Assembly (NCBI GenBank): GCA_001595385.3
Contig: LVEI03000001.1
Coordinates: 1,393,501 to 1,457,500 of the forward strand
Source of the DNA: Deltaproteobacteria bacterium GWC2_55_46
GTDB lineage: Bacteria; Desulfobacterota; GWC2-55-46
Reading direction: 5' to 3'
Length of the DNA: 64,000 bases
Part shown: one piece after another, positions 3,949 to 5,488 of the stretch
How the letters are laid out: each line of letters starts with the position of its first letter
Position numbering within the stretch: the first letter of the stretch is position 1
Notes under the pieces: generated by a model
Told to the model about the DNA's origin: nothing
Database searches by the model: none
Seen by the model: the letters and a program-made list of their open reading frames with translations, nothing else
Translations under genes and position numbers: made by a program

Positions 3949-4806
3949 TCAGTAGCCTATTCCGGGGCGCATCGACTCCAGCCTCGCTATCCTTTCCTCT
4001 ATCGGGGGGTGCGTGCTGAAGAGCTTGAAGAACGACCCGCCCGTGAGGGGGCTCACTATGAACATATGAGAGGTAGCCGGGTTTGCCTCCATGGGTATCC
4101 TCTGGGAGGCCATGTGGAGCTTTCTCAGAGCGTTCGCGAGGTAGTGCGGGTTCCCGGCGATAGTCGCCCCTCCCTGGTCGGCCTTGTACTCCCTTGATCT
4201 CGATATCGCCATCTGCACGAGCATCGCGGCTATCGGGCCGACTATCATCATTACTATGGCGGCTATGGGGCTGCTACCGCCCTCACGATCATCTGACCTT
4301 CCGCCGCCAAAGATCATCGCCCACTGGGCCATCTGGGCGAGGTAGCTTATGGCGCCGGCAAAGGTGGCGGCTATAGTGCCGACCAGTATGTCCCTGTGCT
4401 TTATATGGGCGAGCTCATGAGCCAGGACCCCTTCAAGCTCCTCCCTCGTGAGCATCTTCATGATGCCGGTCGTCACGGCCACGACCCCGTGAGCGGGGTT
4501 TCTGCCGGTCGCGAAGGCATTGGGCTGGGCCTGGTCCATTACATAGACCTTTGGCATGGGTAGCCCTGCCGCGGATGAGAGCCTTGCTACGCTGGAGTAA
4601 AGCTCAGGGGCCTCCGCCTCGGTCACAGGCTTCGCGCCGTACATCTTGAGTATTATCTTGTCGCTCCACCAGTAGCTGAAAAAGTTCAAGGCGAAAGCGA
4701 TGACCAAGGCGAATGTCATGCCGCTCTTTCCGCCTATAGTCGCGCCGACAGCCACAAGCATGAGCGTGAGCGCCAGCATCAGAACCCCGGTCTTAAGCCC
4801 GTTCAT
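3949..4806 (-). CDS. htpX: M48 zinc metalloprotease HtpX
   Basis: HtpX is an inner-membrane protease that cleaves damaged or misfolded membrane proteins on the cytoplasmic side. The 285-residue product has two N-terminal membrane spans (residues 5-45), the zinc motif H130-E131-L-A-H134, further hydrophobic segments (about 142-165 and 180-202) and the third ligand E206 in SREYKAD. Length and layout match bacterial HtpX. An AGGAGGAG SD lies 10 nt before the ATG. Its 5' leader contains a yybP-ykoY-type manganese riboswitch with a terminator switch, so expression should rise with Mn2+. That is a notable control for a protease and is described separately. Confidence 0.95.
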
Positions 4807-4860
4807 CTTTTTGTCTCCTCCTGTTTATTCCTTCTTGTGGTCTTAACGCGGCCCGAAATA

Positions 4861-4941
4861 TAAAAAAGACCTTCTACCGCGCTATGAAAAAACAATTCGA
4901 AGGCGCCACCACGGGCCGCCCCCTTTTACGCGGTAAAGGTC
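4861..4941 (-). terminator. Riboswitch expression platform: conditional terminator before htpX
   Basis: In the RNA the 3' strand of the aptamer's P1 helix (GACCUUUACCGCG, positions 4941-4929) can instead pair with CGCGGUAGAAGGUC (4881-4868). The latter is followed at once by a U-run (4867-4861). This makes an intrinsic terminator mutually exclusive with the Mn-bound aptamer, so Mn2+ binding would allow read-through into htpX. A further possible pairing, GCGGCCCG with CGGGCCGC (4919-4912 with 4855-4848), spans the same region. Confidence 0.7.
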
Positions 4942-5026
4942 TCGCTGTTAGCTGAAACGCTAACCAATGGCGCCGGGCCCTTTAAGGCCGTGCTGACGGC
5001 GGTCACTGCAGGCTACTCCCCTTTAC
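4932..5026 (-). ncRNA. Manganese-sensing yybP-ykoY riboswitch aptamer
   Basis: The leader RNA begins GUAAAGGGGAGUAGC (5026-5012), has an internal GUCAGCACGG (4997-4988) and closes with AGCGAGACCUUUACC (4946-4932). These are the hallmark conserved segments of the yybP-ykoY family, which binds Mn2+ (with Mg2+) between two loops. P1 is GUAAAGG with CCUUUAC, and an internal hairpin GUUAGC-GCUAAC is perfect. The aptamer starts within a few nucleotides of the predicted transcription start. The only gene downstream is htpX; family members are better known in front of Mn exporters and TerC-type proteins. Confidence 0.85.
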
Positions 5027-5034
5027 AGAATATA

Positions 5035-5063
5035 ACAATAACAGATGAGTATACAGCTGTCAA
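5035..5063 (-). promoter_or_regulatory. Sigma70 promoter for riboswitch-htpX
   Basis: On the minus strand TTGACA (5063-5058) and TATTGT (5040-5035) are separated by exactly 17 nt, placing the transcription start near 5028, at the first base of the aptamer. Confidence 0.75.
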
Positions 5064-5101: not shown

Positions 5102-5488
5102 TTATTTTGCGGCGCCTGCCTCCTTGTACCTCTGGGCCGTATCTACGGACTCGAAATAAAGGGCGGAGCCGTTCACCCCTTCCACGATAACGGCCTTTGC
5201 CTTATCTATCTCTTTGCCGGAGACCGGGTCTTTTGAATAACGGGCGCTGCGGTCTGTCTTAAGGGTAGAAACGCATCCGGCGCAGCAGCCGTAATATGTC
5301 TTGCCCTCGAACTCTACCGGTATCTGGGGCTTCGCCATTACCGTATTATTGACCATGCAGACCTCGCTGGATTTTACCTGCTTTATCTGGGCCTTCATGG
5401 TATCGGCAATGCCATTTGCATGGAGGGCAAAGACGCCAAGCATGACAATAAGGCCTATCATGATATTCCTGGTTAAACGGTTGAACAT
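5102..5488 (-). CDS. Secreted TRASH/YHS-like metal-binding protein
   Basis: The 128-residue protein has a signal peptide or N-terminal anchor (residues 8-28). The body carries C44 and a CC-x2-C cluster (C68, C69, C72) in TYYGCCAGC, followed by YSKDPVSGKEID. The pattern resembles TRASH and YHS domains, which bind soft or transition metals in metallochaperones and sensors. It would act outside the cytoplasm. It has a GGAGG SD and its own strong promoter. It lies directly upstream of the Mn-riboswitch-controlled htpX, so a link to metal stress is possible but unproven. The metal specificity cannot be read from the sequence. Confidence 0.75.
   Translation of the reverse strand: MFNRLTRNIMIGLIVMLGVFALHANGIADTMKAQIKQVKSSEVCMVNNTVMAKPQIPVEFEGKTYYGCCAGCVSTLKTDRSARYSKDPVSGKEIDKAKAVIVEGVNGSALYFESVDTAQRYKEAGAAK

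Follow-up and report, generated by a model that had tools for sequence, protein, structure and literature searches.

An alx-type yybP-ykoY leader that probably places the membrane protease gene htpX under manganese control

The htpX locus described here raises the question of why a membrane protease gene should lie behind a leader resembling a manganese riboswitch. We consider it about 85% probable that the leader is an alx-type yybP-ykoY (Mn2+) riboswitch that acts on htpX as a transcriptional ON switch, with HtpX most likely serving the clean-up of membrane proteins under Mn excess.

Anatomy of the htpX leader

In the window (the whole 64-kb stretch of DNA that was analysed), htpX lies on the minus strand (3949–4806) and encodes a 285-aa membrane metalloprotease of peptidase family M48 (Pfam PF01435, 136.4 bits), in which the HEXXH motif is intact as HELAH. 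The gene is preceded by the Shine–Dalgarno sequence AGGAGGA (4816–4822, minus strand, by reading of the sequence) and, at 5063–4862 of the same strand, by a promoter, a yybP-ykoY aptamer, and a terminator into which the 3' strand of the aptamer helix P1 also pairs, in this order. The promoter is sigma-70-like (5035–5063, minus strand; TTGACA-N17-TATTGT, 10 of 12 hexamer positions), with a TG ahead of the second hexamer, and the leaders of relatives read TTGAC(A/T) and TAATAT at the same position. Downstream of it come the boxes AAAGGGGAGUAGC and GCGAGACCUUU, then a long hairpin with a U6 tract behind it. A search for the core pattern GGGGAGTAGC-N50-80-AGACCTTT matched a single site in the window and none in 100 shuffles, and the fold of the leader has a z-score of −2.18, with an equally low value in 1 of 200 shuffles. 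Pattern search and folding thus confirmed the paired boxes, promoter, and P1-reusing terminator that a first-pass annotation had read ahead of htpX. Its description of the upstream protein as TRASH-like held less well, with a weak likeness of 18 bits against a Pfam cut-off of 27. This protein (5102–5488, minus strand) is a secreted, cysteine-containing product of 128 aa that is weakly TRASH/YHS-like, below the Pfam cut-offs, and is conserved ahead of the htpX leader within the genus at about 60% identity (L106, L107, L108, L110).

The aptamer spans 4932–5027 of the minus strand and, folded alone (5027–4932, −34.7 kcal/mol), adopts the predicted arrangement of P1, P1.2, P3, L3, and P4. Folding places the 5' strand of P1, GUAAAGG, at 5020–5026; the 5' side of L1, GGAGUA, and the P1.2 strand GC follow at 5012–5019, are nearly invariant in the family alignment, and also appear in the fold. 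Through P1, the L1 box GGGGAGUAG pairs with G(C)RAGACC. The P3 arm (4965–5008), comprising an outer helix, P3.1, L3, and P3.2, and the P4 hairpin GUUAGC/GCUAAC (4947–4964) are backed by covariation, as is the multi-arm P1/P3/P4 junction as a whole. The 3' strand of P1, CCUUUAC (4933–4939), is common to the aptamer and the terminator in the predicted folds.

The intrinsic terminator, GACCUUUACCGCG / CGCGGUAGAAGGUC plus U6, was located by folding at 4862–4941 of the minus strand (strands 4941–4929 and 4881–4868, U6 at 4867–4862). Since it takes up the P1 3' strand 4939–4933 in the whole-leader fold, aptamer and terminator are mutually exclusive. The terminated form is the whole-leader minimum (−67.4 kcal/mol); forcing the aptamer gives −56.0 kcal/mol, and this gap of 11.4 kcal/mol indicates a switch that is OFF by default. 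Of 119 related elements, 93 possess a terminator platform, compared with 6.5% of shuffled controls, so that the proposed competition between P1 and the terminator is borne out both by folding and in relatives. Control of htpX by the leader, also proposed in the annotation, is supported likewise, and the pairing recurs in relatives. Given the riboswitch class and this anatomy, Mn2+ is likely to be the ligand here and to turn htpX on by antitermination, a reading for which homology gives good support. At low Mn2+, the P1 3' strand would be captured by the terminator and transcription would end before htpX; at high cytosolic Mn2+, the ion would bridge L1 and L3 and keep P1 closed, thereby blocking the terminator and allowing htpX to be transcribed.

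Class membership and the metal site

The covariance search with Rfam RF00080 that had been proposed as a check formally failed: at the gathering score there were 0 matches in the window, and at a relaxed threshold the element scored 14.9 bits (E = 0.046) against a cut-off of 45. It was the best RF00080 match of the whole genome. The miss is uninformative and is no valid exclusion because two E. coli K-12 elements for which Mn-switch validation is cited (PMC9603457) also fall short, mntP at 41.6 bits, below the cut-off, and alx with no RF00080 match at E up to 1. For this reason we rejected the gathering scan as the deciding test.

We instead used R1, a covariance model from 13 related leaders. 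For one training sequence, L049, 9 loop bases were deleted manually; in its natural form L049 scores 89.8 bits. R1 matches the window element at 76.1 bits (E 8.9e-19) and finds E. coli K-12 alx at 40.4 bits (E 5e-10) and mntP at 23.2 bits. In an alignment of 94 distinct sequences, fitted to the R1 model, 25 of 31 pairs show double-sided changes and 96.1% of cells are paired, a level reached by 0 of 500 shuffles; sliding the partner by one column lowers pairing to 38–47%. A MAFFT alignment of 13 sequences agrees, with 97.3% paired and 12 pairs showing double changes. Taken together, the R1 score, the covariation, and the matches to both E. coli switches bear out the assignment to the yybP-ykoY class, and, judged from sequence and covariation, this is an unexceptional aptamer of the alx type. 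With its current cut-off, RF00080 overlooks a large subfamily of that type, the validated E. coli switches among them, and Rfam-based annotation therefore undercounts Mn riboswitches.

In solved structures, Mn is coordinated by L1 and L3 phosphates together with N7 of an invariable adenosine, which is the third residue of L3 in both L. lactis (UCAAUUC, A41) and X. oryzae (ACAUACU, A48) (PMC6754395; PMC9190785). The window element has a 7-nt L3 bulge in P3, UCAGCAC (4990–4996, minus strand), whose third residue, A4994, is the candidate Mn ligand; this position was set by the helix register, a structure-independent assignment. Across the family, L3 reads UCARYAC; 95 of 96 sequences have C at position 2 and A at position 3, and GDT1-linked relatives have an L3 of the ACAUACU type. 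With the conserved adenosine in UCARYAC as in validated and solved switches, the L1/L3 core fits Mn2+ as the candidate ligand. An earlier attempt to align L3 by sequence with the Rfam consensus (GUCAACA) was dropped, as the covariation-supported register places UCARYAC on the 7-nt bulge. The absence of P2 was rejected as a novelty, given that E. coli alx and the RF00080-positive L171 likewise lack it. In two genomes, the aptamer's P4 loop contains a MITE-like inverted-repeat insert about 110 nt long, while the core is intact (L040, ~2242–2450; L050, ~2228–2430).

Distribution and downstream genes

As the annotation had proposed, we surveyed htpX leaders in related genomes. The element is kept upstream of htpX in 4 of 5 same-genus genomes, in three genomes of a sister genus of the same family, and in many Nitrospirota. 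R1 matched 39 of the 395 genomes scanned in the window's phylum and 55 of 296 in the phylum reached via a Nitrospirota locus. The Pseudomonadota served as a useful specificity control: 10 of 299 genomes matched, mainly at TerC-family genes, and none of these matches had htpX behind it. Across the window's phylum and Nitrospirota, 118 matches were assigned; the closest downstream gene identified was HtpX in 37, a share that may be raised by the 8 htpX leaders among the 13 used for R1, followed by P-type ATPase (22), a zinc-ribbon TFIIB-like protein (17), GDT1 (16), and TerC (9). TerC, GDT1, and P-type ATPase genes behind the relatives' aptamers agree with the habit of yybP-ykoY elements of preceding Mn homeostasis genes. 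At least 36 of the sampled genomes, from two phyla, have the riboswitch–HtpX pairing; L220 was excluded from the pairings, its match spanning 25 residues.

Behind some aptamers htpX has such company: GDT1 comes directly after it in L188 and L176, terC follows directly in L174 and after one small gene in L178, a zinc-ribbon gene and then an ATPase follow in L165, and a second aptamer with an ATPase follows in L251 and L248. At least two aptamer architectures, with and without P2, serve htpX in separate parts of the HtpX tree, where the label requires 8 changes compared with 22.9 when shuffled, at least four of them being forced by supported branches.

The zinc-ribbon protein (PF13453, TFIIB-like), often followed by a P-type ATPase, is the first gene behind the aptamer in L151, L204, L206, L212, L223, L231, and others, and in some cases another gene, e.g., carbonic anhydrase, lies between. 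Carbonic anhydrase is directly behind the aptamer in L213, L216, L217, L224, L225, and L263, as are UPF0182 in L197, L211, and L257, band-7/SPFH in L237 and L240, and UPF0114 in L218; several of these unusual partners are membrane-related. The htpX leaders L072–L078 are long and aptamer-free, have a GGCCUUUAUUUCG...CGGGAUAAGGCUUUUUU terminator immediately before htpX, and perhaps contain another regulatory RNA.

TerC, GDT1, and MntP were not found in the window genome, which counts against a Mn switch at htpX, and R1 detected no aptamer at its two P-type ATPases. Thus, htpX appears to be the sole gene under a yybP-ykoY switch in this genome. A second Mn riboswitch at the ATPases was considered and dropped, R1 having found none; one ATPase leader (L280, G000:C1 ~1831310–1831350) has a similar GACCTTT...AAAGGTCTTTTTT terminator without an aptamer and is possibly a decayed or different switch.

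Alternatives, purpose, and known systems

The aptamer might be a yybP-ykoY variant for another divalent metal, with htpX, the ATPase, and TerC forming the response to that metal. Sherlock and Breaker raised the suspicion that other divalent ions are the ligands of some yybP variants (PMC7266159), and carbonic anhydrase, UPF0182, UPF0114, and band-7 are not classic Mn genes. We nevertheless regard this as unlikely, because L1 and L3 agree with those of the validated Mn switches of E. coli alx (L3 UCAUUAC) and L. lactis (UCAAUUC), and because the standard targets of Mn riboswitches include GDT1, TerC, and P-type ATPases. Still less probable is a switch driven mainly by alkaline pH, to which E. 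coli alx responds as well, with HtpX acting in envelope stress: pH and Mn act together on E. coli alx, and an intrinsic terminator overlaps P1 here, whereas we know of no such terminator in the alx leader as usually described. The window aptamer is indeed alx-like, and an alx riboswitch reporter answers pH 8.5 as well as Mn (PMC9603457). That a plain terminator hairpin or chance fold with a fortuitous box match would explain the locus is exceedingly improbable; the missing Rfam gathering match speaks for it, and it is refuted by the covariation and opposed by the R1 E-value of 8.9e-19 and the same htpX pairing in 36 genomes.

Returning to the Mn2+ ON switch, HtpX would belong to the Mn regulon beside Mn exporters and would most likely clear membrane proteins that become damaged, mismetalated, or trapped in the Sec translocon when Mn is in excess. 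By analogy, we infer that the purpose is membrane-protein or Sec quality control under these conditions. The interpretation in the first-pass annotation, that Mn2+ induces HtpX and that Mn excess damages membrane proteins, is partly supported overall; such damage is plausible. The shared regulation of htpX with terC, GDT1, and ATPase genes is in keeping with a response that combines export with membrane clean-up, and the recurrent htpX pairing, sometimes in the same operon as Mn pumps, suggests that bacteria with it answer excess Mn by membrane-protein clean-up plus metal pumping. A broader reading, which we hold tentatively and at somewhat less than even odds, is that the Mn riboswitch regulon of Nitrospirota and the window's phylum serves membrane proteostasis, chiefly through htpX, along with band-7/SPFH, zinc-ribbon, UPF0182, UPF0114, and carbonic anhydrase genes beside Mn exporters; Mn excess would then be a membrane-protein/Sec stress, which the window organism would meet with HtpX and no riboswitch-linked exporter.

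Riboswitch control of htpX was not found in the literature covered by a partial search, and a notice in Dambach 2015 or Price 2015 is possible; the novelty seems to lie in the target htpX, the aptamer itself being ordinary. In two phyla, a membrane protease would thereby join the regulon of a widespread metal riboswitch, and Mn toxicity would be tied to the quality control of membrane proteins, a connection known elsewhere from work on B. subtilis TerC, FtsH, and HtpX. The clear prediction is that htpX is induced by Mn2+.

Among known systems, the E. coli alx switch shares with the window element the L1 boxes, a closely similar L3 (UCAUUAC), the lack of P2, and a match to R1, whereas its target is a TerC membrane protein and not a protease. 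The L. lactis yoaB and X. oryzae yybP-ykoY elements resemble it in the L1/L3 core, in the competition between P1 and a terminator, and as ON switches, and the L3 of L. lactis, like that of alx, resembles the family UCARYAC; unlike the window element, their crystal structures have a four-way junction with P2, and their targets are Mn transporters. As far as the accessible part of its description goes, the S. pneumoniae mgtA switch (Mn2+/Ca2+ ATPase) differs from the window's in target gene class, while P-type ATPase targets also occur in the window subfamily (L117, L149). In B. subtilis, htpX itself is without reported riboswitch control, unlike in the window. HtpX and FtsH nevertheless co-purify there with the TerC proteins MeeF/MeeY, and FtsH becomes essential without MeeF/MeeY, which has been read as a sign of jammed translocons (PMC10550928); as among the window's relatives, HtpX is thus linked, here physically, to a riboswitch-controlled TerC protein.
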